NCBI RefSeq assembly: GCF_000379125.1
Contig: NZ_KB900626.1
Location: 901,748-965,747, forward strand
Direction: 5' to 3'
DNA from: Methylosinus sp. LW4
GTDB taxonomy: Bacteria > Pseudomonadota > Alphaproteobacteria > Rhizobiales > Beijerinckiaceae
DNA length: 64,000 nt
The position numbers and the translations under genes were made by a program. Below, in pieces: positions 23,176 through 41,623 of this stretch (position 1 is the first letter of the stretch; the number at the start of each line of letters is the position of its first letter). Under the pieces are notes generated by a model that searched no databases, was not told the DNA's origin, and saw only the letters and a list, made by a program, of their open reading frames with translations.

Positions 23176-24420
<1,245 letters not shown>

Positions 24421-24488
24421 TCATTGGCGACTTCGCTTCGGCGCTGGTTCATCTAGCAGGCGAGGACGTCATCTCGAAACGAATAAAT

Positions 24489-24505: not shown

Positions 24506-24517
24506 CGGAGCCGATAT

Positions 24518-24535: not shown

Positions 24536-24588
24536 ATCCGCAGGATGTTCATCGCGGATACGGCGTATGAGAGAGCGAGTGACATGAG

Positions 24589-25500: not shown

Positions 25501-25779
25501 TCCGCGGCCGCGCGGGGCGGGGCCGCTCTGCGCGCCCGGCTTGCCTTCGACGCCCGGCGCGCCGGCGGCGAGGGCGCTCGCATCCAGCGCGAAGCCTTCG
25601 TTCTCGTCGATGAAGCTCGAGCGTCCTTCCACGGATTTCTGCGTCACCGTGCTCGGCGTCACATTTTGTCCGACGGCCGGGCCGGAGGTGCGGCCGCGCT
25701 GCGTCATCTGAGTCTCGGCGACGGCGGCGCCGCCGAAAATCAGAACGAGGCTCGTCGAAACGAGCGCGAGCTTGCACAT
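25477..25779 (-). CDS. Small secreted protein of unknown function
   Basis: A 100-residue protein with a clear signal peptide (CKLALVSTSLVLIFGGAAVA) cleaved before ETQM. The mature part is polar and low in complexity, with Gly, Pro, Ser and Ala predominating. No family is recognised. Its stop is overlapped by the end of the LysR gene on the other strand. It has its own ribosome site (ggagg) before the ATG. Confidence 0.6.
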   Translation of the reverse strand: MCKLALVSTSLVLIFGGAAVAETQMTQRGRTSGPAVGQNVTPSTVTQKSVEGRSSFIDENEGFALDASALAAGAPGVEGKPGAQSGPAPRGRGSSSKFVY

Positions 25780-25857
25780 GGCGTCTCCTCCTTCGCGAAT
25801 TCGATCCGCCCCTTACATCGAACCGGCGGGCCGGGCGGCAAGCGGAGGCGTTTCGCC

Positions 25858-26658: not shown

Positions 26659-27521
26659 CGCAGCACCGCCGTTTTTACCCACCAGTCGGCGTGCTGGCGG
26701 CGGATCACCGCCGCCGCGCGGGCGGCCGCCTGACGGGTGGAGAAAAGAGCGAAGCAGGTCGCGCCGGAGCCGGACATTCGCGCGAGCCGGCAACCCTTGG
26801 CGGCGGACAGCACGGCGAGCGCGTCGACGATGACGGGCGCCTCGACGCAGGCGGCGTCCTCCATGTCGTTGCGGCCGCGGCGCAGCGCCGCCGCTATCCC
26901 CTCCGCGCCCAGCGCCGCCGCGATCTCGGGATGCGGAGCCGCGCCGGTCGTTTCGCCCGGGGCGAGGCCGAGGCGGGTGAAGACGCCGCGCGTCTCAACC
27001 GGCGCGCCGGGATTGATGAGCAAGGCGGGCAGCGGCGGCAGGCCGAGTGGGGCGCCGATGGTCTCGCCGCGGCCGAGCATGTAGCGGGCGCGAGGGCAAA
27101 GGCAGACGGGCACGTCGGAGCCGGTGGCGCGGGCGGCCTCCAGCAGGCGCGGATCATCCGCGGCGAGCCCATTGGCGCGGGCGAGCAGCCGCAGCGCCGC
27201 GGCGGCGTCCGAGGAGCCGCCGCCTATGCCGGCCGCGACCGGCAGATATTTGGTGAGATGAAAGGCGCCGAGACGCAGGCCGGGGACGCGCTCCGCGAGA
27301 TGCTGGGCGGCGCGCAGCACCAGATTATCGGCGTCCGAGCCGGCGGCTGCGGCGGTGGGACCGTCCACGGCCAGCGACAGCGCCTCGCCGGGCTCGAGAC
27401 GCAGGCTGTCTCCGGCGCCGGAGAAGGCCACGAGGCTCTCGAGCTCGTGATAGCCGTCGGCGCGGCGGCCGAGAATGTGAAGCGTCAGATTGATCTTGGC
27501 GGGGGCGCGCGTCGCGAGCAT
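26655..27521 (-). CDS. ispE: 4-diphosphocytidyl-2-C-methyl-D-erythritol kinase IspE
   Basis: A 288-residue GHMP kinase of the non-mevalonate isoprenoid pathway. The N-terminus [25 protein letters not shown] holds the catalytic Lys region. The ATP loop is [20 protein letters not shown], the catalytic Asp lies in [10 protein letters not shown], and [14 protein letters not shown] is the third GHMP motif. It shares the pathway with dxr at the right end of the window, which serves hopanoid and undecaprenyl synthesis. It is transcribed with rlmB. Confidence 0.95.
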
Positions 27522-27740
27522 GAATTCCGGTGTCTCGGCCTATGGAACGGTCCGGGCGCGCCGGAAGCGGGCGACAGATGCGCCGCCCGCGCCGGACCTG
27601 TCAAGAACGCGCCGACCTCCAGCTAGACCGCCGATGCGGCCGAAATTCGACCGGGCGTCATACGAATGCGCGTGGCGTGCGCGTTCTCCGAAACCCGCTC
27701 GCGGATGGCTGCGCGCATCGTCGAGCGTGTGGGTTGCCGG

Positions 27741-28166
27741 TTATCGCACCGAGCCGACCGCCTGTCCTTCTGCGTGAGGGAGCCTGACGGCGAAGGCGCC
27801 GGGGCCGAGCAGGGCCTGCACGATCAGGAGCGCCGTCCACAGCGCTGGAAACTCCCATCCGCCATTGGCGTTGGAGAACAGCCAGCCATTGGGCAGATGC
27901 ACGAGCAGCGCGCCGATCATCACGGGAATGAGCGCGACGGACACGATGCGCGTGAGCGCGCCGAAGATCAATGCGAGGCCGCCGCCGATCTCCGCGGCCA
28001 CGACCACATAGGCGAGCAGCGAGGGATAGCCGAGCTGCTCGAAGAATTTCGCTGTTCCAGGCAGGGTGAACACGAAGACTTTGAGCAGCCCATGCGCGAG
28101 AAACAGCGCGCCGAGGCTCACGCGCAGCAGCAGAGCAGCGTAATCCGCATTGCGAACATTGGTCAT
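27741..28166 (-). CDS. DoxX family membrane protein
   Basis: A 141-residue protein with four hydrophobic helices. The family signature LLRVSLGALFLAHGLLKVFVFTLPGTAKFFEQLGYP is at residues 11-50, and AEIGGGLALIFGALTRIVSVALIPVMIGAL follows. A good ggatcgagag ribosome site precedes the ATG at 28166. It sits downstream of the pirin gene on the same strand. DoxX proteins of this kind are linked to redox or thiol stress, but the activity is unknown. Confidence 0.86.
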   Translation of the reverse strand: MTNVRNADYAALLLRVSLGALFLAHGLLKVFVFTLPGTAKFFEQLGYPSLLAYVVVAAEIGGGLALIFGALTRIVSVALIPVMIGALLVHLPNGWLFSNANGGWEFPALWTALLIVQALLGPGAFAVRLPHAEGQAVGSVR

Positions 28167-28224
28167 TCTCTCGATCCTTCTTTCATGATTTGCGAAGGCC
28201 GGCGCGTCGGCGCCGGCTCGTGTG

Positions 28225-28923
28225 TCACGCGGCGTCGACGAGGACGATCTCGCTGTCCTCGAGCGCGGCGACGCGCAGAATGTCGACATCGCTGATCGCC
28301 GCGCCGTCGCGGGCGTTCACGCGCACATCGTCGATCCGCACGGCGCCGACAGCCGGCACGAGATAGGCTTTGCGCGCGCGGCCGAGCGCATATTCCGCCG
28401 TCTCGCCGGCCCGCAGCGTCGCGCCGACGACGCGCGCGGCTGTGCGGATCGGCAGCGCGTCGCCGTCGTTGTCGAAGCCGGAGGCCAGGGTGACGAAGCG
28501 GCCCGAACGATCTCCCTTGGGGAAGGGACGGGAGCCCCAGGCGGGCGCGCCGCCGCGGGTCGTCGGCAGAATCCAGATCTGAAAGATCCGGGTCGGCTCA
28601 TTCTCGAGATTATATTCGGAATGCGCGACGCCGGAGCCCGCGCTCATCACCTGCACGTCGCCGGCCTCGGTGCGGCCCTTGTTGCCGAGGCTATCCTGAT
28701 GCGTGATCGCGCCCTCGCGGACATAGGTGACGATCTCCATGTCGCGATGCGGATGCGTCGGAAAGCCCGTGTGCGGTGCGATCGTGTCGTCGTTCCAGAC
28801 GCGCAGATCGCCCCAATGCATCCGTCTGGCGTCGTGATAGTCGGCGAATGAGAAATGATGCTTGGCGTCGAGCCAGCCGTGATCGGCGCCGCCGAGGCTG
28901 TCGAAAGGTCTCAGTTCGATCAT
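28225..28923 (-). CDS. Pirin family protein (YhhW-type, possible quercetinase)
   Basis: A 232-residue bicupin. The metal-binding N-terminal cupin reads FPTHPHRDMEIVTYVREGAITHQDSLGN and QVMSAGSGVAHSEYN, which supplies the three His and one Glu. The C-terminal cupin is less conserved. YhhW has quercetin 2,3-dioxygenase activity in vitro; the natural role is not known. It forms a unit with the DoxX gene and is divergent from a LysR gene, an arrangement seen in many proteobacteria. Confidence 0.9.
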   Translation of the reverse strand: MIELRPFDSLGGADHGWLDAKHHFSFADYHDARRMHWGDLRVWNDDTIAPHTGFPTHPHRDMEIVTYVREGAITHQDSLGNKGRTEAGDVQVMSAGSGVAHSEYNLENEPTRIFQIWILPTTRGGAPAWGSRPFPKGDRSGRFVTLASGFDNDGDALPIRTAARVVGATLRAGETAEYALGRARKAYLVPAVGAVRIDDVRVNARDGAAISDVDILRVAALEDSEIVLVDAA

Positions 28924-29035
28924 TGCAAATCTCCTGTCGCGACATCGGTCGCTGTCGATGGAGACGGATTTAAGAGTTGCGCGCCCTTCTGTTCAGTCGG
29001 ATAATTTTGGTCGAACTGTTCGAGAAAGTTGAAAA

Positions 29036-29965
29036 GTGAGCAATCCGGGCGCGCCCAGCCTCGACCAGCTGACCATCTTCCTGGCCATTGTCGACGCCGG
29101 CAGCTTCGCCGGCGCGGCGCGGCGGTTGAATCGCGCCGTCTCGGTGATCAGCTATGGAATCGCCAATCTCGAGGCGCAGCTCGGCATAGAGCTGTTCGAG
29201 CGCGAGGGAACGCGCAAGCCGCGGCTCACCGTGGCGGGGCGCGCGCTGCTGGCGGAGGCGCGGGCGATCTCGCGCGGCGTCGAGGATTTGCGCGCCAAGG
29301 TCAAAGGCCTGCTCGAGGGGCTGGAGGCGGAGGTCGATCTCGCTGTCGATGTGATGCTGCCGACGGAGCGGGTGGGGACCGTGCTGCGGGAATTCGCGGG
29401 GCGATTCCCGACCGTGCAGCTGCGGCTGCATGTGGAGGCGCTCGGCGCGGTCACGGCGATGGTGCAGGGCGGCGCGGCGATGATCGGCGTGTCCGGCCCG
29501 CTCGCGCTCGGCGTCGAGGGGATTGAGAGCATAGCGGCCGGATCGGTCGCGCTGATCCCGGTGGCGGCTCCCGATCATCCTCTGGGGCGCATGGCGCGCA
29601 TCCCGCCCGGCGCCGCGCGCGAGCATACGCAGCTCGTGCTCACGGATCGCTCGCGCTTCACCGAGGGGCGCGATTTCTCGGTGGTCAGCCCGCGCAGCTG
29701 GCGTCTCGCCGATCTCGGCGCGAAGCACGCCCTGCTGCGCGAGGGCGTCGGCTGGGGCAACATGCCTCTGCAAATGGTCGCGGACGATCTGGCGTCGGGC
29801 GCGCTCGTGCGGCTGGCCATGTCGGATCAACGGGGCGGAATTTATCGCTTCTCGTGCATTTGGCGGCGCGAGGCTCCGCCGGGGCCGGCCGCCACCTGGC
29901 TGGTCGATCGCTTCGTCGCGCTGGGCGCGGAGGATTTGCCGGTCGAAGGGCTGAGCGACGTTTGA
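29036..29965 (+). CDS. LysR family transcriptional regulator
   Basis: A 309-residue LysR protein starting at a GTG. The winged helix is SLDQLTIFLAIVDAGSFAGAARRLNRAVSVISYGIANLEAQLGIELFERE, and an effector-binding domain follows. It is divergent from the pirin-DoxX pair and so is their likely regulator. Unlike most LysR proteins it has Val-Ile-Ser-Tyr in place of the usual Ser-x-x-Ser in the recognition helix, which may alter its site. An imperfect dyad is present in the shared upstream region. Confidence 0.87.
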   Translation: MSNPGAPSLDQLTIFLAIVDAGSFAGAARRLNRAVSVISYGIANLEAQLGIELFEREGTRKPRLTVAGRALLAEARAISRGVEDLRAKVKGLLEGLEAEVDLAVDVMLPTERVGTVLREFAGRFPTVQLRLHVEALGAVTAMVQGGAAMIGVSGPLALGVEGIESIAAGSVALIPVAAPDHPLGRMARIPPGAAREHTQLVLTDRSRFTEGRDFSVVSPRSWRLADLGAKHALLREGVGWGNMPLQMVADDLASGALVRLAMSDQRGGIYRFSCIWRREAPPGPAATWLVDRFVALGAEDLPVEGLSDV

Positions 29966-30044
29966 GCTCGGCGCCGCCGGCCGGAGCCGCGCGCTCCGAG
30001 CCCGGGTCTTGACGGCCGTCCGCCGATCATGGACCCTTTTCGGC

Positions 30045-30461
30045 ATGGCGAAGCTATGGGCGATTTGGGGACGGCTGGCGCGCATGCTCGCGCTGAGCGG
30101 GATCGTCGCGCTTTTTCTCGCGCAGGCGGTCGCCTCCGCGCGTCCCGACGCGTCGAGCTTCGGCGGCTCCGCCTCGCTCTCCTCGTCGGACCGGCTCTGC
30201 CGTTCGGCCGCCACCGAGGCGGCTCATGACGTCGCCGACGCCCATGGCGGTCATACGGGCGGGGGCCATCATTGCGACTCGTGCCCCGCCATCTGCGGCG
30301 GTGGCGCGGCGGACGCCATTGTCGCGCCCCTTCGGCTCGGCGCGGCTCTGCCCCATGCGCCGCCCGCCGTCGTGGCGTCGCGGGCGGTCGAGGCTCCGGC
30401 TCGCCGCCGGCCCGGCTGGCGCTGGTCCTGGTCGTCGCGCGCGCCGCCGCTCGGCGCCTGA
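30045..30461 (+). CDS. DUF2946-like His/Cys-rich secreted protein
   Basis: A 138-residue protein with a hydrophobic N-terminal signal segment (MLALSGIVALFLAQAVASA). A metal-binding looking motif, HGGHTGGGHHCDSCPAICGG, lies near residues 68-87. The C-terminus is Arg/Trp-rich. Short His/Cys-rich proteins of this sort are often found beside copper or TonB-dependent uptake genes. It directly precedes the ECF sigma gene by 72 bases and may form part of the same locus. An in-frame TTG at 30009 is less likely as start. Confidence 0.55.
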   Translation: MAKLWAIWGRLARMLALSGIVALFLAQAVASARPDASSFGGSASLSSSDRLCRSAATEAAHDVADAHGGHTGGGHHCDSCPAICGGGAADAIVAPLRLGAALPHAPPAVVASRAVEAPARRRPGWRWSWSSRAPPLGA

Positions 30462-30533
30462 TCGCGCCGCTCGACGCGACGGCGCCGCGCTCTTCCCGCC
30501 GCCAATCCTTTCGCACGCATTCGGACGCCGCGC

Positions 30534-31034
30534 ATGTCGGACAGCAAATTCTTGTCGTTCCGCGAGCTTTTCCTCCGCAACAAGCGCGGCCTGCTCGCTT
30601 TTCTGACGCGCCGGGTCGGGCGCGAGGAGGCCTCCGATCTGCTGCAGGAGACCTTCGTGCGCGCGCTCCGCCACGATCGTTTCGAGAGCGTCGCCGATTC
30701 GACCGCCTTTCTGAAGCAGATCGCCATCAATCTCACCAGGGATTTCGCCCGTCGCCGCAAGACCGAGACTCGCTATCTCGATTTCGGCGATCCGCCCGTC
30801 GAAGCGCCCTCGGACGCGGCGACGCCGGAAGAATCGCTCGATCGCCGCCTCGAGGCGCGCATCGTGCTGGAGACGATCGAGGCGCTGCCGCCCCGCTGCC
30901 GGGAGGTCTGCGTGATGGTGATGCACGAAGGCGTCTCCCTGAACGAGGCGGCGCGGCGGCTCGGCATTTCCGAGACGATGGCGCGCCGGCACTTGCGGCT
31001 CGCGCTGCTGCGCTGCCGGGCGGCGCTCGATTGA
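30534..31034 (+). CDS. ECF sigma factor, FecI/MbnI-like
   Basis: A 166-residue extracytoplasmic-function sigma factor. Region 2 is RRVGREEASDLLQETFVRALRHD and region 4 is IEALPPRCREVCVMVMHEGVSLNEAARRLGISETMARRHL. It is of the iron/copper-starvation FecI type. It precedes a FecR-like anti-sigma gene and a TonB-dependent receptor gene, as in fec and mbnIRT. It most likely recognises the shared motif seen before fecR, the receptor and mbnP. No such motif is visible before its own gene. Confidence 0.9.
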   Translation: MSDSKFLSFRELFLRNKRGLLAFLTRRVGREEASDLLQETFVRALRHDRFESVADSTAFLKQIAINLTRDFARRRKTETRYLDFGDPPVEAPSDAATPEESLDRRLEARIVLETIEALPPRCREVCVMVMHEGVSLNEAARRLGISETMARRHLRLALLRCRAALD

Positions 31035-31051
31035 TTTATTTTGGCGCTCCG

Positions 31052-31080
31052 GTTTCGTTTTCCGTTCCGGCGCGTCCTAT
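31052..31080 (+). promoter_or_regulatory. Candidate ECF-sigma promoter before fecR
   Basis: GTTTCGTTTTCCG (31052-31064) followed by CGCGTCCTAT (31071-31080) resembles a FecI/PvdS-type promoter with a CGTC -10. The 13-base upstream half is identical to that before the receptor gene, and the downstream half CGCGTCCTATGAG is identical to that before mbnP. It ends 48 bases before the fecR start. Confidence 0.6.
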
Positions 31081-31127
31081 GAGACAGCAGAGGGCGGAGG
31101 AGCCGCGGCGATCGATGGCTATGACCA

Positions 31128-32075
31128 ATGACCGACTATAGCGACGGTTTCGATCACGACAGCCCGCGCGTCGCCGCCGTCAATTGGTGGATACGGATGC
31201 GGGCCGGGGCGCTTTCGGCCGCCGAAAAGGCCGAATTCGACGCCTGGCGAGCGGCGGACCCCGCCAATGCCGCGGCCTTCGACGATATGGCGGACATGTG
31301 CGGCTTCGTGGAGAGGCTCGCGCCGAGCCGGCGTCCCGAGCCGCCGCGCGTCGCTCCCCGTCGCCGGGCCTCGCTGGCCGGCGCGGCGACGATGGCCGTC
31401 GCGCTCTGTCTCGCCATGGCGGTCGGCTTCGGCGATCTCGCGACCTGGCTTCGCTCGGACCTCTACGCCGGCGTCGGCGACCGCAAGAGTGTGACGCTGG
31501 AGGACGGTTCGCGCGTGGAACTCGACGCGAGGTCGGCCATTGCGCTGCATTTCGAGCCCGGCCGTCGGCGGCTGACGCTGCTCGAGGGCGAAGCCTGGTT
31601 CCAAGTCGCGCCGGACGCCGCGCGGCCCTTTGTCGTGGAGGCGGCCGGGGGCTCGGTGACGGCGCTGGGCACGGCCTTTGACATTGCGCTCGACAAGGGC
31701 GAGGCGCGCGTCACCGTCACCGAGCACAGCGTCGCGGTCGCGAGCGGCGGCGATTCCGTGGTGGTGGGGGAGGGCGCGCAGAGCGCCTTTTCCGCCGAGC
31801 GCGCGGCGCGGCCCGAAGCCGTCGACGTCAAGCGCGCCACGGCTTGGCGGCGCGGCAGGCTGATCTTCGAGAACAAGCCGCTCGGCGAAGTGCTCGCGGC
31901 GCTCGGCCGACACCGGCGCGGCTATGTCTATTGCATCGGCGAAGCGAGCTGCGAGCGGCGCGTGACCGGCGTTTTCGACGCCGAGAATCCCGCCCAGGCG
32001 CTGCGCGAGATCGAGGCCTTTCTCGGCCTGCGCGCCATTCATGTCACCGACTATCTGATCCTGCTCCACGGCTGA
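31128..32075 (+). CDS. FecR family anti-sigma / sigma regulator (MbnR-like)
   Basis: A 315-residue inner-membrane signal transducer. The cytoplasmic sigma-binding domain begins AVNWWIRMRAGALSAAEKAEFDAWRAADPANAAAFDDM. One transmembrane helix (about residues 83-103, AGAATMAVALCLAMAVGFGDL) follows. The periplasmic FecR domain has VTLEDGSRVELDARSAIALHFEPGRRRLTLLEGEAWFQV. The last part, LGEVLAALGRHRRGYVYCI, resembles the domain that meets the receptor's signalling domain. It has its own ECF-type promoter candidate. Confidence 0.9.
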   Translation: MTDYSDGFDHDSPRVAAVNWWIRMRAGALSAAEKAEFDAWRAADPANAAAFDDMADMCGFVERLAPSRRPEPPRVAPRRRASLAGAATMAVALCLAMAVGFGDLATWLRSDLYAGVGDRKSVTLEDGSRVELDARSAIALHFEPGRRRLTLLEGEAWFQVAPDAARPFVVEAAGGSVTALGTAFDIALDKGEARVTVTEHSVAVASGGDSVVVGEGAQSAFSAERAARPEAVDVKRATAWRRGRLIFENKPLGEVLAALGRHRRGYVYCIGEASCERRVTGVFDAENPAQALREIEAFLGLRAIHVTDYLILLHG

Positions 32076-32115
32076 GGCGTTTTTCGCCTCGCGCGAAAAA
32101 AATTTGCTCCGCGAC

Positions 32116-32142
32116 GTTTCGTTTTCCGCATCGACCGCGTCC
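32116..32142 (+). promoter_or_regulatory. Candidate ECF-sigma promoter before the TonB-dependent receptor gene
   Basis: GTTTCGTTTTCCG (32116-32128) is identical to the copy before fecR, with CGCGTCC at 32136-32142. The spacing is one base longer than before fecR. It lies 60 bases before the receptor start. Confidence 0.6.
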
Positions 32143-32201
32143 AGCAAGACGGGGGCATTTCAGCGCCCCGAGGCGGACGATCGTTACGGAGATGCGGAGA
32201 C

Positions 32202-34748
32202 ATGGCGAGGAAGTCGGCGCGCGGCGAGCGGCGAGGTGAAGCGAATATGGGTTCGGCGGTCGCGGCGGCGGCGTTCGGCGCCTTGATGACGGGAGCGGGA
32301 GTCTCGGATTCTCCAGCGCAGGCCGCTATTGCGCCGCAGGAGCGCTCGGGCGCGATCCAGAGCTACCGCATTCCCGCGGGCTCGGTGGCCTCGGCGCTGA
32401 ATGTCATCGCCGATGAGAACGATCTCCATGTGCTCTACGACGCGCGCCTCACCCATGGCCGCATGACGCCGGGGCTTTCCGGCAAATATTCCGTGCAGGA
32501 GGCGCTCGGCGCGCTGCTGGCCGGCACCGGCCTCACTTACGAATTCTCGCGCGACGGGCAGGCGGTGTCGATCGTGCTGGCGCAGAACGACGCCGCGACG
32601 CAGAACGACGCCAGCGGCGCAGCGGCGCTGCCGCCGATCGACATTGGCGCGCAGACTGGGCGCAAGGACGGCGCGCCGAGTGGCGGCCGCGCGGCGCCGG
32701 GGCCGGGCGATCGCTATACCGGCTATAACGCCGCGAGCGCGCCGGCGACTCTGAAGACCGACACGCCGCTGTTGAAGACGCCGATCGCCATCGAGGTGGT
32801 GACGCGCCAGACGATGGACGATCAGCAGGCGATTTCAGTCGGTGACGCGCTGCTCTCTAATGTCAGCGGCGTGACTCCGGTCGCCAATGCTTTCGACCTC
32901 TTCAAAATTCGCGGCTTCTACAATCCTCTCGGCAATGGCTATAAAAACGGCTTGATGGAGTATCACCTCCGCAATCTCGACACCACTAATCTGCAATCAG
33001 TCGAAGTGCTGAAAGGGCCTGCCGCGATGCTGTTCGGCCGCGGCGAGCCGGGCGGCATCGTGAATCTGGTCGTCAAGCGACCGCTCGAGACGCCCTATTA
33101 TTCGGTGCAGCAGCAGGTGAAATCCTTCAATGGAACGCGCACCACGCTCGACGCCACCGGGCCGCTGACGCAGGACAAAGCGATCCTCTATCGATTCAAT
33201 GGCGAATTCTACAGCACCGATTCCTATCGTGATTTCGTGAGCGACCGGAATCTCTTCCTCGCGCCGACGATCTCGATTCGTCCGTTCGAGCAATTTCGCA
33301 TGAACATCGATTTCGAATATCAGAACAGAACCTATGTCGACGATTACGCGATCCTGCCGGCGGTCGGCGGAGGCCCCGCCAATATTCCCATCAGCCGCTA
33401 TCTCCAGATGCCGTCGATCATGACGACGATGCCCGATCATGTCGACCGAAAGCGCATCGCCTATGACTGGACGTGGGATTTCGCGCCGGACTGGAGCCTC
33501 ACCAATCGGCTCGGCTATTACAACATCGGCACTCGGAACGAGAATGTCACCGGCGCCGGCTTCAATGCGACGACAGGCGTGCTGACTCGCCTATTGAACT
33601 ATTTCCCTGGCTACACGGACCAGAGTCTCGCCCTCAATCTCGATCTGAAAGGGAAATTCGCAACCGGGCCGCTCGAGCATTCGATATTGGTCGGCTATGA
33701 TTATTTCGCGACCATCATGCCGTATTACAATTATTATTTTTTGAACGCCGCCAGCTCGATCAACATTTACGCGCCGTCCTATACGCAGCTCGAGAATCCC
33801 TATCGATCTCTCTATTACGGCCAGGCGGGCCAAAAATGGACAGGCGTCTATGGGCAGGACATGATTTCCTTCCTCGACGACACGGTCCATGTGCTGCTAG
33901 GCGGACGCTATGATTGGACGGAGACGGGTTCGAACAAAGTCTTCTCCTCTCTCTACGCCGCCCGCAATTCCTACGTGAACAACTATGCCGAGTCCTTCAG
34001 TCCGCGCGTCGGCGTCGTCTATCAGCCGCTGCCCTGGCTATCGCTCTACGGCAATTTCACGCAATCTTTCGGCGCGAACAATGGCCTGACCAACCGGCTG
34101 ATACCGCTCGCGCCGCAAAAGGGCGAGCAATTCGAGGGCGGGCTGAAGGCGGAACTCCTCGACAAGCGCCTCACTTTGACGATGGCCTATTTCGATATCC
34201 ACAAGACCAATATCCCCTATACGGATCCGACCGACTCGAGCAACACGCTGCTGATCGGCAAAGCGCGCAGCCAGGGTTTCGAATTCGATCTGACGGGACG
34301 CATAGACGACAATTGGAGCGTCATCGCCAATTACACGCATGACGACGTGCGCACGGTGCAAGGCGCGAGCTCTTATAATCCGCTGACGCTCAGCGCGACG
34401 CAGCTCGCGGTCGCCGGCACGAAGCTGCCCGCGAGCCCGCGCAACTACGGCAATCTCTGGGTGAAATACGACGCTGACGGGCAATTCGACGGATTGAGCC
34501 TCGGCGGCGGCGTTACGGTCGTCGAGAGCTCGCTGGGCGACAATGCGAACTCTTTCGTCCTGCCCGGATATACGCTGGTCAATGGAATGATCGCCTATAC
34601 CGCCAAGGTCGCCGGCTATACGGTGACCGGCCAGCTCAACGTCAAGAACATCGGCAATGTGGTCTATTATCCGACGTCGACGGACCGCTACACAATCATG
34701 ACCGGCGCCCCCCGCACCTTCCTCGGCTCGCTGCGCGTCGAATTCTGA
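32202..34748 (+). CDS. TonB-dependent receptor with STN signalling domain (MbnT/FecA-like)
   Basis: An 848-residue outer-membrane importer. A signal peptide and an STN signalling domain (IQSYRIPAGSVASALNVIADENDLHVLYD... to about residue 128) come first. A TonB-box-like LPPIDIG, the plug (IEVVTRQTMDDQQ, VLKGPAAMLFGRGEPGGIVNLVVKRP) and a beta-barrel ending in Phe (LRVEF) follow. The STN domain signals through FecR to the ECF sigma. The ligand is a metallophore; the adjacent MbnP/MbnH genes suggest a copper chelator such as methanobactin, but a siderophore cannot be excluded. Confidence 0.9.
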   Translation: MARKSARGERRGEANMGSAVAAAAFGALMTGAGVSDSPAQAAIAPQERSGAIQSYRIPAGSVASALNVIADENDLHVLYDARLTHGRMTPGLSGKYSVQEALGALLAGTGLTYEFSRDGQAVSIVLAQNDAATQNDASGAAALPPIDIGAQTGRKDGAPSGGRAAPGPGDRYTGYNAASAPATLKTDTPLLKTPIAIEVVTRQTMDDQQAISVGDALLSNVSGVTPVANAFDLFKIRGFYNPLGNGYKNGLMEYHLRNLDTTNLQSVEVLKGPAAMLFGRGEPGGIVNLVVKRPLETPYYSVQQQVKSFNGTRTTLDATGPLTQDKAILYRFNGEFYSTDSYRDFVSDRNLFLAPTISIRPFEQFRMNIDFEYQNRTYVDDYAILPAVGGGPANIPISRYLQMPSIMTTMPDHVDRKRIAYDWTWDFAPDWSLTNRLGYYNIGTRNENVTGAGFNATTGVLTRLLNYFPGYTDQSLALNLDLKGKFATGPLEHSILVGYDYFATIMPYYNYYFLNAASSINIYAPSYTQLENPYRSLYYGQAGQKWTGVYGQDMISFLDDTVHVLLGGRYDWTETGSNKVFSSLYAARNSYVNNYAESFSPRVGVVYQPLPWLSLYGNFTQSFGANNGLTNRLIPLAPQKGEQFEGGLKAELLDKRLTLTMAYFDIHKTNIPYTDPTDSSNTLLIGKARSQGFEFDLTGRIDDNWSVIANYTHDDVRTVQGASSYNPLTLSATQLAVAGTKLPASPRNYGNLWVKYDADGQFDGLSLGGGVTVVESSLGDNANSFVLPGYTLVNGMIAYTAKVAGYTVTGQLNVKNIGNVVYYPTSTDRYTIMTGAPRTFLGSLRVEF

Positions 34749-34808
34749 TCGGCGGGCGCCTCGGGGCGGGAGATTTGCGCTGATCGCAAAAAATCTTTCG
34801 TCCCGACA

Positions 34809-34837
34809 TTCCCTTTTTGCCGTCTCGCGCGTCCTAT
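34809..34837 (+). promoter_or_regulatory. Candidate ECF-sigma promoter before mbnP
   Basis: CGCGTCCTATGAG (34828-34840) repeats the downstream half of the fecR promoter exactly, and TTCCCTTTTTGCCG (34809-34822) is a weaker form of the upstream half. It lies about 65 bases before the mbnP start. Confidence 0.5.
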
Positions 34838-34905
34838 GAGGTAGGCGAGTCCCTCGAGAGTTCGCGGTCGGCGGAACGTCCGGCCGATAGATGGAGGAAG
34901 TCGAG

Positions 34906-35886
34906 ATGCGGAATTTGCGAAAGCTCGGATTTGCGGCCGTGGCGGCCGGCTATTTTTGCGGCGTTTGCGGGCCGGCGCTCGCCGCCTCCGGCGAGACGAA
35001 GCCGGTCTCGATCGCCTTCGCGTTGGTCGACGACGGCAAGGAGGTCGGCTGCGGCGCGCCGCTCGCCAATCTCGGGACGAGCCATCTCGCCGCCAAGCTC
35101 CATGATGCGCGTTTCTATGTCTACGGCTTCAAGCTGATCGACGCAAAGGGCAAGCGCACGCCGGTGTCGCTGGAGCAGAGCGAATGGCAATATGGCGACG
35201 TCGCTCTGCTCGATTTCAAAGATGCGCGCGGCGGCAATAATCCTTGCACGGCGGGCAATCCGGCCAAGAACGTCCGCATCGTCGGCAGCGCGCCGGCGGG
35301 CGCCTATGTCGGCCTCGAATTCTCGGTCGGCGCGCCGGTGGAGACGATCGTCGACGGCAAGCCCGTCGCGATCAATCACTCCAATGTCGAGACCGCGCCG
35401 GCTCCGCTCGATGTGGTCGGCATGGCGTGGAACTGGCAGGCCGGCCGCCGCTTCGTGACTTTCGAGTTCGACCCGGAGACGCCCGTCATCAAGGCCGATG
35501 GCTCCAAGGCGCGGACCTGGATGGTGCATATCGGCTCCACCGCCTGCAAGGGCAATCCGGCGACCGGCGAGATCGTCTCCTGCGCGCATGAGAACCGTTT
35601 CTCCGTGACGCTCGATCGCTTCGACGCCAAGACGCAGCGCGTCGAGCTCGATTTGACCCGCTTGCTCGCGAATTCCGACCTCGCGGTCGACAAGGGCGGC
35701 GCGGTCGGCTGCATGGGCGCGCTCGACGATCCCGAATGTTCCGCCGTTTTCGCGGCGCTCGGCCTCAATCTCGGCGACAGCGCAGCGGGCGCCGGCGATG
35801 CCGGCAAGCAGGCCAAGCCCGGCGTCTCGTCGATTTTCAAGGTCGGCGCTTCGACGCCGGCGAAAATCGTGGGCGCGAAGCAGTGA
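34906..35886 (+). CDS. mbnP: MbnP-like periplasmic copper protein (four-Cys metallo-mystery pair protein)
   Basis: A 326-residue secreted protein with a signal peptide ending in ALAA (residues 1-27). The family Cys pattern is visible: VGCGAPLANLG, NNPCTAGN, STACKGNP and VSCAHEN, with two more Cys in VGCMGALDDPEC. In Methylosinus MbnP a Trp is oxidised by MbnH to kynurenine, making a copper-binding site; candidate Trp residues here are in SEWQYGDVALLDF and MAWNWQAG. The ATG at 34906 is chosen because a GGAGG ribosome site lies 8 bases before it. It overlaps mbnH by four bases. Confidence 0.86.
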   Translation: MRNLRKLGFAAVAAGYFCGVCGPALAASGETKPVSIAFALVDDGKEVGCGAPLANLGTSHLAAKLHDARFYVYGFKLIDAKGKRTPVSLEQSEWQYGDVALLDFKDARGGNNPCTAGNPAKNVRIVGSAPAGAYVGLEFSVGAPVETIVDGKPVAINHSNVETAPAPLDVVGMAWNWQAGRRFVTFEFDPETPVIKADGSKARTWMVHIGSTACKGNPATGEIVSCAHENRFSVTLDRFDAKTQRVELDLTRLLANSDLAVDKGGAVGCMGALDDPECSAVFAALGLNLGDSAAGAGDAGKQAKPGVSSIFKVGASTPAKIVGAKQ

Positions 35887-37031
35887 GCCGGGCGGCGCTC
35901 CTCGGGTCGATGCTCGCCGTCGCGACGGCTTGCGCCGCGACCGCCGAGCCGACGGAATGGAAATGGGAGCTTCCCAAATATGTTCCGCCGCCGCGCGTGC
36001 CCGCCGACAATCCCATGTCGGAGGAGAAGTTTCAGCTCGGACGGCGCTTGTTCTTCGACAAGCGCGTCTCGGGCAATGGAACGCTCTCCTGTTCCTCCTG
36101 TCATTTGCAGGAGCGCGCCTTCACCGATGGGCGCGTCGTCAGCGTCGGCTCGACCGGCGACAAGACGCCGCGCAATGCGCCGTCGATCGTCAATTCCGGC
36201 TGGCATGCGACGCTCACCTGGGCCAATCCGGCGCTGGTGACGCTCGAGCGCCAGATGGAAAATCCGCTCTATGGCGAGCGGCCGATCGAGATGGGCGTCA
36301 ATGACGCCAATAAGGCGGAGATCGTCGCGCGTTTCCGCAACGACGCGGATTATAAGAAATGGTTCGCCGCCGCTTTTCCCGAGAAGAAGCCGGCCGAGCA
36401 AATCTCCTTCGAGACGATCATCAAGGCGATCTCGGCCTTTCAGCGCGGCGTTGTCTCCTTCGACAGCCGCTACGACCAATATCTGCAAGGCAAGATCAAG
36501 CTGACGGAGGCGGAGCAGCGCGGGCACGATCTCTATTTCGGCGAGAAGGCGGAATGTCATCACTGCCATGGCAGCGTCAATCTCGACGATCAGTTCGTGC
36601 ACGCCAAGACGCGCGAGGCGGAGACGCCTTTCCACAACACCGGGCTCTACGACATCGACGGAAAGGGCGCCTATCCAGAGCCCAATCGCGGCCTCTACGA
36701 CATAACGCAAGACCCGGATGATATGGGCAAGTTCCGCGCGCCGAGTCTGCGCAACATAGCGGTGACGGGCCCTTATATGCATGACGGAACGGTCGCGACG
36801 CTCGAGGAGGTCATCGACATCTATGCGCGCGGCGGCCGGAAGATCGCGAGCGGCGCCAAGGTCGGCGACGGCGCGGCCAATCCGTTGAAGAGCCCGCTGA
36901 TCGTGAAGATCGATCTGACGCCGCAGGAGAAGGCCGATCTGCTCGCCTTTTTGAAGGCGCTCACCGACGAGACTCTGCTCACCTCGCCGCGCTTCTCCGA
37001 TCCGTGGAAGACGCAGGCCGCGGGGAAATAG
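35883..37031 (+). CDS. mbnH: MbnH-like di-heme cytochrome c peroxidase family enzyme
   Basis: A 382-residue di-heme c-type protein of the CCP/MauG superfamily. Heme motifs are CSSCH (residues 70-74) and CHHCH (residues 225-229). Two Trp residues, in SGWHATLTWAN, lie in the inter-heme region. The N-terminal signal segment ends in VATAC. MbnH oxidises a Trp of its MbnP partner to kynurenine. It starts at a GTG overlapping the mbnP stop (GTGA), so the pair is translationally coupled. This is not a classical H2O2-scavenging peroxidase given the partner. Confidence 0.87.
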   Translation: MSRAALLGSMLAVATACAATAEPTEWKWELPKYVPPPRVPADNPMSEEKFQLGRRLFFDKRVSGNGTLSCSSCHLQERAFTDGRVVSVGSTGDKTPRNAPSIVNSGWHATLTWANPALVTLERQMENPLYGERPIEMGVNDANKAEIVARFRNDADYKKWFAAAFPEKKPAEQISFETIIKAISAFQRGVVSFDSRYDQYLQGKIKLTEAEQRGHDLYFGEKAECHHCHGSVNLDDQFVHAKTREAETPFHNTGLYDIDGKGAYPEPNRGLYDITQDPDDMGKFRAPSLRNIAVTGPYMHDGTVATLEEVIDIYARGGRKIASGAKVGDGAANPLKSPLIVKIDLTPQEKADLLAFLKALTDETLLTSPRFSDPWKTQAAGK

Positions 37032-37328
37032 CCGGGAGATGAGCGATATTGCGTATTCAGTTGTATGTATTGTGAGCGTATATCATCTATACGGATAGAA
37101 ATTAAAGACGACCGTGTTCTGCGTTTTGCTTGCCTGAAGTTATTTCTATTATATATTCCTCGTTCATTGGCGTATGCGGCGGTAGAGCAGGGCGCAAGCT
37201 CCGATGGCGAGGACGCGCGTCTCGGAGAAGGATGAGCGATTGCTCGTCGAGCGCCGCGTCCGATCGCCGCAAGCGTCGTCCCATTTATTCAAATGTCCTC
37301 AGCGACATTCATGCGAGCAGATTTCGAC

Positions 37329-37691
37329 ATGACCAATATTGCTCGAGATAGGGAGCCCGGCGACCTCGACCGGGCGCGCGCGGCCGAGGCTCGCGGACTG
37401 ATCGACGCGCTTCGACCTTGCCTGCCGCTCATGGCGCATCCGCGCGGACGATCATTGGCTTTGTCGATCGCCGCCGCGCGGCGTCGCGGCGCGGACCGGC
37501 GATGCACTGTGACCAATATATTCGACGCCGGCGACGCTTTCGGCCTCATGTGCCAAGTCGAGGTCGGCGGCGGCGGCGCGCCCGCGATCTTCGTGGCGCC
37601 CATCGACGAGCTGGCGTTCGGGCGGCATCCGATCGCGCGCGCGGTCGCCGATTATCGACGCCGCCGCGCGCGCGTCGTCGGGGCCTCATGA
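37329..37691 (+). CDS. Hypothetical protein
   Basis: A protein of about 120 residues with no recognised domain. It has an Arg-rich N-terminal half and a segment TNIFDAGDAFGLMCQVEVGGGGAPAIFVAPIDELAFGRHPIARAV that may form a small alpha/beta fold. An upstream ATG at 37293 would add 12 residues. It lies alone between mbnH and the arsenic operon, preceded by about 290 bases of unusually A/T-rich sequence. Coding is likely from codon use, but the function is unknown. Confidence 0.5.
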   Translation: MTNIARDREPGDLDRARAAEARGLIDALRPCLPLMAHPRGRSLALSIAAARRRGADRRCTVTNIFDAGDAFGLMCQVEVGGGGAPAIFVAPIDELAFGRHPIARAVADYRRRRARVVGAS

Positions 37692-37726
37692 GAGGCGAGG
37701 GCGGACGCGCTCGGCCTTGACGTCCT

Positions 37727-37754
37727 CCATATTTCAAATATATTGGAACTATGG
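37727..37754. promoter_or_regulatory. ArsR operator overlapping the arsR start
   Basis: A 28-bp dyad: arms CCATATTTCA (37727-37736) and GGAACTATGG (37745-37754) around AATATATT, which is itself self-complementary. Twelve of 14 base pairs match. It covers the arsR start codon and lies where a -10 element would be, so ArsR binding would block transcription. Confidence 0.65.
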
Positions 37755-38095
37755 AAAAGAATGACGCCATCACGGCGCTCGTGGCGCTCGCCCACGAGTC
37801 TCGGCTCGATATTTTCCGGCTGCTGATGCAGGCCGGTCCCGAAGGGCTTCCCGCGGGGCGGATCAGCGAGCGGCTGGGGCTTCCTTCGACCACGCTGTCC
37901 TTCCACCTCAATCAGCTCAAGCACGCCGATCTCGTGACCTTCCGTCGGGACGGCCGCTCGCTGATCTATTCGGCCGCCTATCCCGTCATGAACGCGCTGC
38001 TCGCCTATCTGACGGAGAATTGCTGCAAGGGCGACGCCGCCGCTTGCTGCGCCACAGAAGCCGATACGACCTGCCAGACCGAGAGGGTCCCATGA
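37751..38095 (+). CDS. arsR: ArsR family arsenic-responsive repressor
   Basis: A 114-residue winged-helix repressor (ALAHESRLDIFRLLMQAGPEGLPAGRISERLGLPSTTLSFHLNQLKHADLV). It has no CVC box in the recognition helix. Arsenic ligands are C-terminal: Cys91-Cys92, Cys99-Cys100 and Cys108. Known ArsR proteins with only C-terminal Cys include some selective for methylarsenite. This fits the following arsI gene, whose product acts on methylarsenite. It overlaps arsI by four bases (ATGA). Confidence 0.9.
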   Translation: MEKNDAITALVALAHESRLDIFRLLMQAGPEGLPAGRISERLGLPSTTLSFHLNQLKHADLVTFRRDGRSLIYSAAYPVMNALLAYLTENCCKGDAAACCATEADTTCQTERVP

Positions 38096-38604
38096 AGCGC
38101 CTGCATCTGCATGTCTCCGTCGACGACCTGCCGCGATCCATCCATTTCTACAGCGCGCTGTTCGCCGCCGCGCCGACGATCGAAAAGCCCGATTACGCCA
38201 AATGGATGCTGGACGATCCGCGCGTGAATTTCGCCATTTCGGCGCGGGGCGGGTCGAGCCTCGGATTGGAGCATCTCGGCATTCAGGTCGAAACCACGGA
38301 CGAGCTGCAAGAGGTCTATGGACGCCTGAAGCAGGCGGGCGGGCGCATCTACGAAGAGGGCGCGACCACCTGCTGCTATGCGCAGTCGGAAAAGTCCTGG
38401 ATCGCCGATCCGCAAGGGCTGATGTGGGAGACCTTCCTCACGACGGGCGAGAGTCCGGTCTATGGCGGCGATCCGGCGCTGGACGCGCTCGAGAGCGAGG
38501 CGAAAGCCTGCTGCGCGCCGACGACGCCGCAAGGCGAATGCTGTCCGCCGAAGCCGGAGCTTCCCGCGAAGGCGCCGTGCTGCGGCGCGAAGGAGCCGGC
38601 ATGA
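38092..38604 (+). CDS. arsI: ArsI/CadI family C-As lyase, Cys-rich tail
   Basis: A 170-residue vicinal-oxygen-chelate enzyme that cleaves the carbon-arsenic bond of trivalent methylarsenicals using Fe(II) and O2. Probable iron ligands are His5, His61 and Glu113. The vicinal arsenic-binding Cys94-Cys95 lies in TTCCYAQ. The C-terminal tail contains three more Cys-Cys pairs (ACCAP, ECCPP, PCCGAK). The stop overlaps arsC by four bases. The neighbouring arsenate reductase and efflux permease handle the inorganic arsenite it releases. Confidence 0.88.
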   Translation: MKRLHLHVSVDDLPRSIHFYSALFAAAPTIEKPDYAKWMLDDPRVNFAISARGGSSLGLEHLGIQVETTDELQEVYGRLKQAGGRIYEEGATTCCYAQSEKSWIADPQGLMWETFLTTGESPVYGGDPALDALESEAKACCAPTTPQGECCPPKPELPAKAPCCGAKEPA

Positions 38605-39038
38605 GCGCGACCGATGTGATCGTCTATCACAATCCCGATTGCGGAACGTCGCGCAACACGCTCGGCCTCATCCGCAACGCCGGCATAGAGCCGCATGTGA
38701 TCGAATATTTGAAGACGCCGCCGACGCGCGCGCTGCTGACCCAGCTCATCGCGCGAATGGGAATATCGACGCGGGCGCTGCTGCGCGAGAAGGGCGCGCC
38801 CTTTCACGAGCTCGGACTCGGCGATCCGACGCTGACCGACGAGCAATTGCTCGATGCGATGATGGCGCATCCGATCCTCATCAATCGTCCGATCGTCGTC
38901 ACTTGCGAGGGCGTGAGGCTGTGCCGTCCGTCGGAGGCGGTTCTGGATATTCTGCCGCTGCCGCAACGCGGCGCGTTCCGCAAGGAGGACGGCGAGCTCG
39001 TCGTCGATTCCGAAGGTCGGCGCGCGGCGACGACATGA
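38601..39038 (+). CDS. arsC: Arsenate reductase ArsC (glutaredoxin-dependent)
   Basis: A 145-residue thioredoxin-fold reductase. The active-site Cys14 is in YHNPDCGTSRNTLGLI, and HPILINRPIVV and CEGVRLCRPSEAVLDIL carry the conserved Arg residues. It reduces arsenate to arsenite, which Acr3 then exports. Translation is coupled to arsI by an ATGA overlap, and acr3 follows after 57 bases. Confidence 0.93.
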   Translation: MSATDVIVYHNPDCGTSRNTLGLIRNAGIEPHVIEYLKTPPTRALLTQLIARMGISTRALLREKGAPFHELGLGDPTLTDEQLLDAMMAHPILINRPIVVTCEGVRLCRPSEAVLDILPLPQRGAFRKEDGELVVDSEGRRAATT

Positions 39039-39095
39039 TGCGCCCGCAGGCCGGGTCGCAAAAGCCCTACGATATTCTCGACGAAAGGAACGCCG

Positions 39096-40196
39096 ATGGA
39101 ATTGCGCGCAGCTCGGGCCGCCACGGGGCCTGATCGTAGCAAAGCGCCCGCTGCGCCCGCCATGGGCGTTTTCGAGCGCTATCTGACCCTATGGGTTGGC
39201 CTCTGCATCATCTTCGGCGTCGCGCTCGGCCAGGCGGCTCCCGTCGTCTTTCACGCGATTGGAGAAGCGACGATCGCGCAAGTGAATCTCCCGGTCGCGG
39301 CGCTCGTGTGGCTGATGATCGTCCCCATGCTGCTGAAGGTCGACCTCGCGGCGCTGGCAGAGGTGCGCGCGCATTGGCGTGGCGTCGCCGTCACGGTCGG
39401 GGTCAATTGGCTGGTGAAGCCCTTCTCGATGGCGCTGCTCGGCTGGCTGTTCATCGCGCATCTGTTCCGGCCCTATCTGCCGGCCGATCAGATCGACGCC
39501 TATATCGCCGGCCTCGTTCTGCTGGCTGCGGCGCCTTGCACGGCCATGGTGTTCGTGTGGTCCAACCTCGTCGACGGCGAGCCGCATTTCACTCTTTCGC
39601 AGGTCGCGCTCAATGACACGATCATGATTGTCGCCTTCGCGCCGCTGGTCGCTCTGCTGCTCGGCTTGTCGTCCATTGCCGTCCCATGGGGCACGCTGCT
39701 GCTGTCGGTCGCGCTCTATATCGTCGCGCCGGTGATCGCCGCGCAGCTCTGGCGGCGTTCGCTGCTGGAGACGGGCGGCGCGGCGGCGCTGGCCGCGACG
39801 CTGCGCGCGCTCGGCCCGCTCTCGCTCGCCGCTCTGCTGCTCACACTGGTCATTCTGTTCGGCTTGCAGGGCGAAGAGATCGTGCGGCAACCGCTGGTCA
39901 TCGCGCTATTGGCGACGCCGATTCTGATCCAGGTGTATTTCAACGCCGGCCTCGCCTATCTCGTCAATCGCCGCCTCGGCGTCGAATGGCGCGTCGCCGG
40001 ACCTTCCGCGCTGATCGGCGCCAGCAATTTCTTCGAGCTCGCCGTCGCGACGGCGATCGCCCTCTTCGGCTTCCAGTCGGGCGCCGCGCTCGCGACCGTC
40101 GTCGGCGTGCTCGTCGAGGTTCCCGTCATGCTCTCCGTCGTCCATATCGTGCGGCGCTCGCGGAATTGGTACGAGGCCGGCGCCCGGGCCCTTTGA
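39096..40196 (+). CDS. acr3: Arsenite efflux permease Acr3
   Basis: A 366-residue inner-membrane transporter of the BASS/Acr3 family with about ten hydrophobic helices. FERYLTLWVGLCIIFGVALGQ is the family start, and LVLLAAAPCTAMVFVWSNLVDGEPHFTLSQVALND contains the essential Cys of the fourth helix. It expels arsenite using the proton motive force. An aaaggaa ribosome site precedes the ATG at 39096. It ends the arsRIC-acr3 operon, and an intrinsic terminator follows. Confidence 0.95.
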   Translation: MELRAARAATGPDRSKAPAAPAMGVFERYLTLWVGLCIIFGVALGQAAPVVFHAIGEATIAQVNLPVAALVWLMIVPMLLKVDLAALAEVRAHWRGVAVTVGVNWLVKPFSMALLGWLFIAHLFRPYLPADQIDAYIAGLVLLAAAPCTAMVFVWSNLVDGEPHFTLSQVALNDTIMIVAFAPLVALLLGLSSIAVPWGTLLLSVALYIVAPVIAAQLWRRSLLETGGAAALAATLRALGPLSLAALLLTLVILFGLQGEEIVRQPLVIALLATPILIQVYFNAGLAYLVNRRLGVEWRVAGPSALIGASNFFELAVATAIALFGFQSGAALATVVGVLVEVPVMLSVVHIVRRSRNWYEAGARAL

Positions 40197-40233
40197 CGCT
40201 TTTCGCGAATTGCGCTAAACGACTGCCGTAACG

Positions 40234-40263
40234 AGCCCCGGCGTTACCCGCCGGGGCTTTTTC
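40234..40263 (+). terminator. Rho-independent terminator between acr3 and purA
   Basis: AGCCCCGG (40234-40241) pairs with CCGGGGCT (40251-40258), a 9-base loop lies between, and a TTTTTC run follows. It ends the arsenic operon and isolates purA. Confidence 0.85.
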
Positions 40264-40295
40264 TTGGGCTCACGCAGAAAGCAGACTGAAGCGCC

Positions 40296-41591
40296 ATGGC
40301 GAATGTGGTCGTGGTCGGCGCCCAATGGGGCGACGAAGGCAAGGGCAAGATCGTCGATTGGCTCTCGCTCGAGGCCGATGTGGTGGTGCGCTTCCAGGGC
40401 GGCCACAACGCCGGCCATACGCTCGTCATCAATGGCGTGACCTATAAGCTCGCGCTGCTGCCCTCGGGCATTGTGCGGCCGGGCAAGCTCTCGGTCATCG
40501 GCAATGGCGTCGTCGTCGATCCGCATTTTCTCGTCGGCGAGATCGAGCGTCTGCGCGAGCAGGGCGTCGAGATCGGCCCCGAGAATTTCAAGATCGCCGA
40601 GAACGCCCCGCTCATCCTTTCCCTCCACCGCGAGCTGGACGCTTATCGCGAGGAGGCGGCCGGCAATGGCGTGAAGATCGGCACCACCAAGCGCGGCATC
40701 GGCCCCGCCTATGAGGACAAGGTCGGGCGCCGCTCGGTGCGGCTGATGGACCTCGCCGAGCCGGATGCGCTGGACGAAAAAATCATCCGCTTGCTCGCCC
40801 ATCACAATCCGTTGCGGCGTGGACTGGGCTTGGCGGAGATCGAGCCGGCGACCGTGCGCGACGAGCTGCTCTCCGTCGCGCCCAAGGTTCTGCCTTACAT
40901 GGATGCGGTGTGGGAGCTGCTCGAGGACCTCCGCCGCGCCGGCAAGCGCATATTGTTCGAGGGCGCGCAGGGCGTGCTGCTGGACGTCGATCACGGCACC
41001 TATCCCTATGTGACCTCCTCCAACACGGTCTCCGCCTCGGCGGCCAGCGGCTCCGGCCTCGGGCCGGGGGCGATCGGCTATGTGCTCGGAATCGCCAAAG
41101 CCTATACGACGCGCGTCGGCGGCGGGCCTTTCCCCACTGAGCTCCATGACGAGATCGGCACGCTGATCGGCGATCGCGGCCATGAGTTCGGCACCAACAC
41201 CGGCCGTCGGCGGCGCTGCGGCTGGTTCGACGCGGTGCTGACGCGCCAGGCCGTGAAGACCTCCGGCATAGACGGCATCGCCTTGACCAAGCTCGATATT
41301 CTCGACGGTCTCGAGAAGATCGAAGTGTGCACCCATTATCTTCTGGACGGCGTCCGCATCGACCGTTTGCCGGCCTCGCAATCGGCGCAGGCTCGGGTCG
41401 AGCCCGTCTATGAGACGATCGAGGGATGGCAGGGAACGACGGGCGGCGCCCGCTCCTGGGCCGATCTCCCGGCGCAGGCGATCAAATATGTGCGCCGCAT
41501 CGAGGAATTGATCGGCGCTCCGGTCGCGCTCCTCTCCACCAGCCCCGAGCGCGATGACACGATTCTGGTGCGTAATCCTTTCGAGGATTGA
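40296..41591 (+). CDS. purA: Adenylosuccinate synthetase PurA
   Basis: A 431-residue enzyme that joins aspartate to IMP using GTP, the first step from IMP to AMP. The GTP loop is [14 protein letters not shown] (catalytic Asp near residue 12). [53 protein letters not shown] and [15 protein letters not shown] follow in order. Length and all motifs are complete. It is monocistronic or cotranscribed with the membrane protein gene 32 bases downstream. Confidence 0.97.
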
Positions 41592-41623
41592 CGAGAATCG
41601 TCCGAGGTGGTCTTAGAAGCCCC

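Follow-up and report, generated by a model that had tools for sequence, protein, structure and literature searches.

What does a methanobactin receptor operon do where no methanobactin biosynthesis gene stands beside it? The question is raised by a locus of Methylosinus sp. LW4 that lies in a stretch of 64,000 nucleotides (hereafter, the window; C1:901748-965747 of a 4.8 Mb genome in three contigs, C1 to C3, strain label G000) and encodes homologs of the extracytoplasmic function (ECF) sigma factor MbnI, the FecR-like anti-sigma factor MbnR, the TonB-dependent receptor MbnT, and the proteins MbnP and MbnH (Table 1). A preliminary description of this locus took it as the mark of a strain that takes up a metallophore made by others or that uses MbnPH with some other copper ligand. 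We consider it probable, although well short of settled, that the locus serves as a secondary operon for methanobactin uptake and copper handling, headed by a small upstream open reading frame (uORF) and thus of the composition uORF-I-R-T-P-H, in a strain that has its own methanobactin (mbn) operon elsewhere. This reading builds on the gene content of the locus, an mbn operon on contig C2 that lacks mbnP and mbnH (PH), a receptor of the MbnT clade with a mosaic structure, and the kinship of the PH genes with other isolated PH pairs.

The strain encodes methanobactin biosynthesis on another contig

The five genes named above (30534-37031) are real, consecutive and point in the same direction, as first described. 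MbnP scores 287.7 bits against TIGR04052 (NCBIfam cut-off 140) and matches PDB entry 7l6g (E 2.8e-150), and MbnH scores 486.1 bits against TIGR04039 (cut-off 362.85) and matches 6e1c (E 6.8e-208). MbnP is said to bind copper in a kynurenine-dependent manner, reportedly in a 2021 PNAS paper. The receptor has an N-terminal STN domain and, with MbnI and MbnR adjacent, shows the group I arrangement. The 157-base gap initially reported between the receptor gene and mbnP presupposes the ATG at 34906 as the start of MbnP and shrinks to 142 bases with a start at 34891. The first position of that description, 30045, coincides with the ATG of a small ORF (30045-30461), the uORF, which it left unmentioned. 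A scan with seeds and patterns over window positions 26001-42000 turned up neither an mbnA-like peptide nor any relative of mbnB, mbnC, mbnM or mbnN, in agreement with the claim that no precursor or biosynthesis gene lies nearby.

The genome-wide look for mbnABC that the preliminary description recommended found mbnB, mbnC and an MbnA-like precursor on contig C2, at ~370-373 kb, where MbnB reaches 427.8 bits (cut-off 325), MbnC 224.5 (185) and MbnM 467.1 (285). The minus-strand order is uORF, I, R, T, a second sigma factor, a DUF4189 protein, an mbnN-like aminotransferase, the MbnA-like peptide (MTIKVVKKEILPVIGRVQAMCACNPPWCGTC, with the precursor end MCACNPPWCGTC), mbnB, mbnC and mbnM. The aminotransferase, which NCBIfam describes as hisC-like below the cut-off, we take to be mbnN from its position. 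The genome has a single MbnB over the cut-off and a single MbnC, both on C2; mbnPH are absent from the C2 operon, and the one MbnP and the one over-cut-off MbnH of the genome are both in the window. In gene content, the I-R-T genes of the window stand apart from mbnABC in a strain that encodes methanobactin biosynthesis. That the strain makes no methanobactin and depends on others, the strong form of the original proposal, was suggested by the lack of mbnA, mbnB and mbnC within 26001-42000; the biosynthesis proteins over their cut-offs and the precursor on C2 refute it at the level of gene content, and we now find it scarcely credible.

Of the five DUF692/MNIO genes in the genome, a single one passes the MbnB model, and the remaining four may be part of other peptide pathways. 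The second ECF sigma factor and the DUF4189 protein lie between the receptor and mbnN in the C2 operon (L030 8717-9967), and weaker relatives come after mbnH in OB3b (L105).

The receptor groups with receptors of mbn operons

The genus comparison covered 10 genomes, with G300, G304 and G305 taken as Methylosinus sp. C49, M. sporium DSM 17706 and OB3b, respectively, and receptors counted as MbnT-like at E <= 1e-150; a search with profile NF040705 across 248 genomes was used solely for locating Methylocystis mbn loci. Within its own genome, the window receptor is 66% identical to a paralogue at C1:690875 and 62% to the C2 mbn-operon receptor, after which identity falls to 50%. Placed in a phylogeny of 56 receptors, as the preliminary description had suggested, it groups with mbn-operon receptors, inside a 23-row clade (support 100/100) that includes four of these with two precursor types (the receptors of the C2 operon, G301, C49 operon 1 and G297). 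FecA, FhuA and two Pseudomonas receptors fall far outside on long branches, and a grouping of the window receptor with ferric citrate or siderophore receptors, which would have told against the preliminary reading, is thereby rejected; it shares 25% identity with FecA (390 residues) and 27% with FhuA (734 residues).

These results bear on the alternative of an import substrate that is a different copper ligand or a ferric siderophore, with an independently acting PH pair. Its best general family is indeed the siderophore receptor family TIGR01783 (321.1 bits, cut-off 223.5), CntO/FoxA and FhuA are the solved chains nearest to it in sequence, and many other receptors of this genome are headed by uORFs of the same kind, but the nesting among mbn-operon receptors, the low identity to FecA and FhuA, the adjacent mbnPH and a uORF whose kind is known to be copper-responsive make this alternative quite improbable.

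MbnT2, the secondary receptor of OB3b, has been given as 57% identical to MbnT-SV97 (Peng et al. 2022, PMC9601215). It could not be identified among the compared receptors, where three group II-like receptors show at most 48% identity to seven OB3b receptors, and the compared set yielded no SV97 or SB2 receptor.

The receptor is a mosaic

The window receptor is a mosaic, in which the signalling domain, together with FecR, belongs to one group and the plug-barrel to another. Over residues 50-180 it is 85% identical to the receptor of the C49 locus at G300:C1:2.13 Mb (hereafter C49 2133k) and 49% to the C49 mbn-operon receptor, and in 40-residue segments across residues ~45-140 the values are ~95% and 38-52%, whereas the plug is 70% identical to the former and 88% to the latter, and the barrel 66% and 82%. 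The shift in sliding identity falls at about residues 140-185, and this linker may be the zone of recombination.

Trees of the two parts, each with 24 rows, differ accordingly. The signalling part yields the group of the window receptor, C49 2133k, sporium C3 and G301 694k at 100/99, whereas the barrel unites the window receptor with the C49 and G297 operon receptors, G301 694k and sporium C22 at 95/96. The signalling data reject the barrel grouping (approximately unbiased (AU) test, p 4.95e-33) and the barrel data reject the signalling grouping (AU p 2.56e-06), p values that are optimistic because the groups were named after the identities had been seen. The FecR tree, from which sporium C3 was left out, matches that of the signalling part, with the window FecR 93% identical to that of C49 2133k, and at the DNA level the identity to the C49 2133k locus is 82.6% across 29968-34748. 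A sharper break of the same kind is seen when sporium C22 and G301 694k are compared with the G297 operon receptor, to which they are 97-98% identical in the plug and 96-97% in the barrel but 50-52% in the signalling part. A broad literature search on receptor recombination, with subscription papers outside it, found no prior description of a mosaic MbnT.

Predicted ligand

The C49 operon 1 and the G297 operon encode the same precursor end, MCSSCPMCGPLCP, unlike the MCACNPPWCGTC of the window strain, and the receptors of these two operons share 88% identity in the plug and 76% in the barrel. Plug and barrel of the window receptor are 88/82% identical to the C49 operon receptor and 84/74% to that of G297, and 67/67% to the receptor of the strain's own C2 operon. 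C49 presents the mirror image, with the receptor of its isolated IRT-PH locus being 88/80% identical in plug and barrel to the mbn-operon receptor of the window strain, and the two strains look reciprocally equipped, as far as identities tell. Furthermore, G304 has neither MbnB over the cut-off nor MbnC, yet has a receptor of the MCSSCPMCGPLCP-operon type, 98/97% identical in plug and barrel to the G297 operon receptor and 52% in the signalling region. In pyoverdine receptors, specificity is carried by regions near the plug (PMC11444679). By its sequence grouping, the window receptor may recognize a methanobactin other than the strain's own, and uptake of foreign methanobactin is the best, albeit unproven, reading. 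From the original idea of uptake of a metallophore made by others, the narrower form stands, in that the plug-barrel groups with receptors of operons encoding a different precursor, and the part about a non-producer falls.

The locus could instead mainly serve the strain's own methanobactin, with T as a second self receptor and PH as the relocated tail of the mbn operon. The absence of PH from the C2 operon, the sole MbnP and MbnH being in the window, and the presence outside the mbn operon of the single over-cut-off MbnH of four mbnB genomes (G000, G297, G300 and G301) would all fit. However, the C2 operon has a receptor of its own, nearly identical to that of the G301 operon, which shares its precursor end, and the window receptor departs from it throughout plug and barrel, to the extent given above. 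We regard service to the strain's own methanobactin as unlikely, although the half of this alternative that concerns PH is compatible with secondary uptake.

Distribution and history of MbnPH

Among the 10 genomes, MbnP passes its cut-off in 8, and MbnH and MbnT-like receptors are found in the same 8. MbnB passes in 7 of these, including G303, whose mbnB has an internal TAG (L112, C66) and which carries an intact isolated mbnPH on a separate contig; G304 has PH without mbnB/C, and G299 and G302 gave no over-cut-off match for MbnP, MbnH, MbnT-like receptors or MbnB. Of the seven mbnB genomes, G305 (OB3b) alone showed mbnH within its mbn operon, the contig with mbnB being too short to judge in G298 and G303, and the mbn operons of G297 and C49 (L110, L107) hold an mbnH remnant of 91-92 aa (20-24 bits) beside an intact mbnP. 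In the MbnP tree the window protein joins the isolated MbnP of C49, G297 and M. sporium (Shimodaira-Hasegawa-like approximate likelihood ratio test (SH-aLRT) 95 and 99); in the MbnH tree the isolated rows of the same three are nearest, with no set that contains the window row reaching 95.

The G297 locus is syntenic, with window positions 22001-27656 matched at 94%, and it lacks 27657-29999 and 30056-34371, the second gap having flanks that abut at one point. The receptor has been lost there by a clean deletion and P and H are intact. The occurrence of MbnPH in a genome without mbnB/C and their survival after receptor deletion point to copper handling after uptake.

Plasmid pOB3b1 of OB3b (L077) carries a uORF-I-R-T module without PH between transposase genes, and these flanks suggest that the module is mobile.

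The RAPP uORF

The window uORF is the first gene of the operon, as judged by spacing and direction. By eye, its start is signal-peptide-like, and it has a CXXC motif (HHCDSC) and a C-terminal RAPP (SSRAPPLGA), the two separated by a spacing of 51, as in two homologs. Its score against DUF2946 (PF11162) is borderline, 23.7 bits at a cut-off of 23.7 when read from the ATG at 30045 and 23.4 bits from 30009. An ORF ending in RAPP or RGPP precedes I (in four Methylocystis loci, P) at 21 of 25 IRT or PH loci, the mbn operon of OB3b among them and L104, L111 (contig edge), L159 and L161 being the misses; 18 of the 21 have CXXC at a spacing of 45-51, counted from the nearest CXXC. When 10 such ORFs were submitted to Pfam, DUF2946 was returned for 6 at E up to 0.5, one above the cut-off and the window uORF at it. 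Shuffling of residues in 2057 segments yielded a mean of 0.05 RAPP-ending ORFs with CXXC, compared with 19 observed, and 26 other loci (723 segments) yielded 0. Third-position excess is weak as proof of coding, with codon-position differences of 28, 22 and 33 in one pair and 47, 51 and 49 in another.

In Bordetella pertussis, the presence of copper leads CruR to repress the receptor genes that follow it (Roy et al. 2022, PMC9426467), and CruR arrest has been demonstrated in vitro (PMC12992588). CutF acts in the opposite sense (PMC9973294), so that, going by homology, the window uORF may exert control in either direction.

Relation to known systems

Three Methylosinus strains are known to carry isolated mbnPH pairs in the neighborhood of MbnT-like receptors that come with I and R (Kenney and Rosenzweig 2013, PMC3621798), and the present locus resembles those of LW3, LW4 and M. 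trichosporium OB3b in that these same genes lie apart from the mbn operon; G305 has two loci of this isolated IRT-PH type (L103, L104). In OB3b, uptake of foreign methanobactin depends on MbnI2R2T2, and group I producers are described as also having alternative receptors (Peng et al. 2022, PMC9601215). The window locus is like mbnI2R2T2, in which mbnT2 imports foreign methanobactin, as a secondary STN receptor with sigma and anti-sigma factors in a strain with a methanobactin operon, and differs from it in having PH beside the receptor, none being described beside T2 in the excerpted text of that paper. With CruR the window uORF shares the position as the first gene of a receptor operon, the CXXC, the C-terminal RAPP and, at a borderline score, the DUF2946 likeness; it differs in being followed by sigma and anti-sigma genes, in the gap of 72 bases versus 162 in B. 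pertussis, and in a spacing of 51 versus 45. MbnPH-like genes in cruR-headed operons have been noted before (Roy et al. 2022, PMC9426467), the only paper found to pair "methanobactin" with "DUF2946" in a search that had subscription papers outside it. The order of sigma factor, anti-sigma factor and transducer is that of the ferric citrate system FecIRA, although the window receptor does not group with FecA.

The type of locus is therefore known, isolated IRT-PH loci having been described in 2013 and a receptor for foreign methanobactin being in print by 2022. New here are the mosaic receptor, the co-occurrence of PH with receptors and the copper-type uORF at the head of the operon; these, and the predicted ligand type, go beyond the 2013 account as excerpted (PMC3621798).

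Proposed function and its weak points

Under secondary uptake, the uORF-I-R-T-P-H genes would form one transcript. The plug-barrel would take up copper-loaded methanobactin of neighbors, of the type made from precursors ending in MCSSCPMCGPLCP, and ligand binding would be signalled via STN, FecR and the sigma factor to raise expression of the operon. With copper plentiful, the RAPP uORF might let transcription stop before the sigma gene. MbnH would oxidize MbnP to create a periplasmic copper site that may serve copper from both the window receptor and the strain's own receptor. More tentatively, the findings can be joined into a broader possibility that we hold with less than even confidence: Methylosinus may build receptors for neighbors' methanobactins by exchange of the plug-barrel at the STN-plug linker, keeping the resident sensor cassette (RAPP uORF, sigma, anti-sigma, STN); the RAPP uORF may be the copper-sensing negative element proposed for mbn operons, the canonical one of OB3b included; and MbnPH may be a receptor-side copper-release pair common to all methanobactin receptors of the cell.

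Several observations weigh against secondary uptake. The mbn-operon receptors of OB3b (MbnT1), M. parvus and C49 operon 2 fall outside the 23-row clade, which has no biochemically tested anchor because OB3b MbnT1, the proven self receptor, is among those outside. The position of the window receptor beside the C49 and G297 operon receptors has a support of 94/94 for the whole protein and 95/96 for the barrel, which is good, not absolute. Because mbnT2 is induced by non-cognate methanobactin (Peng et al. 2022, PMC9601215), specificity may not follow from homology. That PH goes with the receptors and not with mbnB is seen in one genome, G304, plus G303 with its interrupted mbnB.

For the uORF, the spacing of 51 is outside the 45, plus or minus one or two, of CruR, and Pfam gave no DUF2946 match for the uORF of the OB3b mbn operon. 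In addition, a control in the same genome found a RAPP or RSPP uORF upstream of 20 of 35 other TonB-receptor places (L175-L207), in 15 of 19 where the receptor is at least 35% identical to that of the window and in 5 of 16 below this value; at L201 and L205 the uORF stands 1.5-1.6 kb off and no I or R was found in the interval, one uORF ends in RSPP, and the fragment C2:133139 is outside the count. An mbn-specific uORF is rejected by this control: the uORF is a real and widespread class in the genome, not specific to mbn. The 20 RAPP/RSPP uORFs of this one genome make up a large set of possible arrest peptides.

Layout of the locus and its neighbors

Table 1 Features of the locus in window coordinates
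Feature	Position	Strand	Basis
5' edge of the module, 77 bases ahead of the uORF ATG	29968..30044	+	DNA similarity to C49 2133k begins at 29968
CruR/CutF-like uORF, 138 aa	30045..30461	+	DUF2946 score at the cut-off; 72 bases ahead of the sigma gene
MbnI-like ECF sigma factor	30534..31034	+	Sigma70 regions 2 and 4; sigma70-ECF 72.2 bits
MbnR-like FecR anti-sigma factor	31128..32075	+	FecR 71.0 bits, DUF4880; C49 2133k FecR nearest in tree (93%)
MbnT-like TonB-dependent transducer, 848 aa, mosaic	32202..34748	+	STN, Plug and barrel domains; trees; domain identities
STN signalling region, residues ~45-140	32334..32621	+	Sliding identity
Linker, residues ~140-185, putative recombination zone	32619..32756	+	Relationship switches here
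Plug (185-292) and barrel (293-848)	32754..34745	+	Domain identities
MbnP, WxW motif kept	34906..35886 (alternative start 34891)	+	TIGR04052, PDB match
MbnH di-heme enzyme, two CXXCH, GTG start overlapping mbnP stop	35883..37031	+	TIGR04039, PDB match
Conserved ORF without family name	37293..37691	+	Downstream of mbnH in two relatives too (84% and 88% identity)

The family of the last ORF, which has no Pfam or NCBIfam match, recurs beside mbnH or near mbn operons (L030, L078, L105, L106, L109 and L115). Downstream of the locus, at 37751-40196, Pfam identifies an ArsR-type regulator, and the ORFs that follow presumably encode, as named by reading, a glyoxalase-fold protein, an ArsC-type reductase and an ACR3-type arsenite exporter.

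Implications

Copper supply decides which methane monooxygenase methane-eating bacteria use. For MbnPH, the candidate roles are maturation or copper release. A copper-binding negative regulator of mbn genes has been considered possible (Kenney and Rosenzweig 2013, PMC3621798), and the RAPP uORF that heads receptor operons, that of OB3b included, is a concrete candidate for it. If the transport half of these receptors is indeed swapped under a resident sensor, strain-to-strain competition for copper would become readable from genomes, in the way that receptor groups are already read from genomes for the pyoverdines of Pseudomonas.

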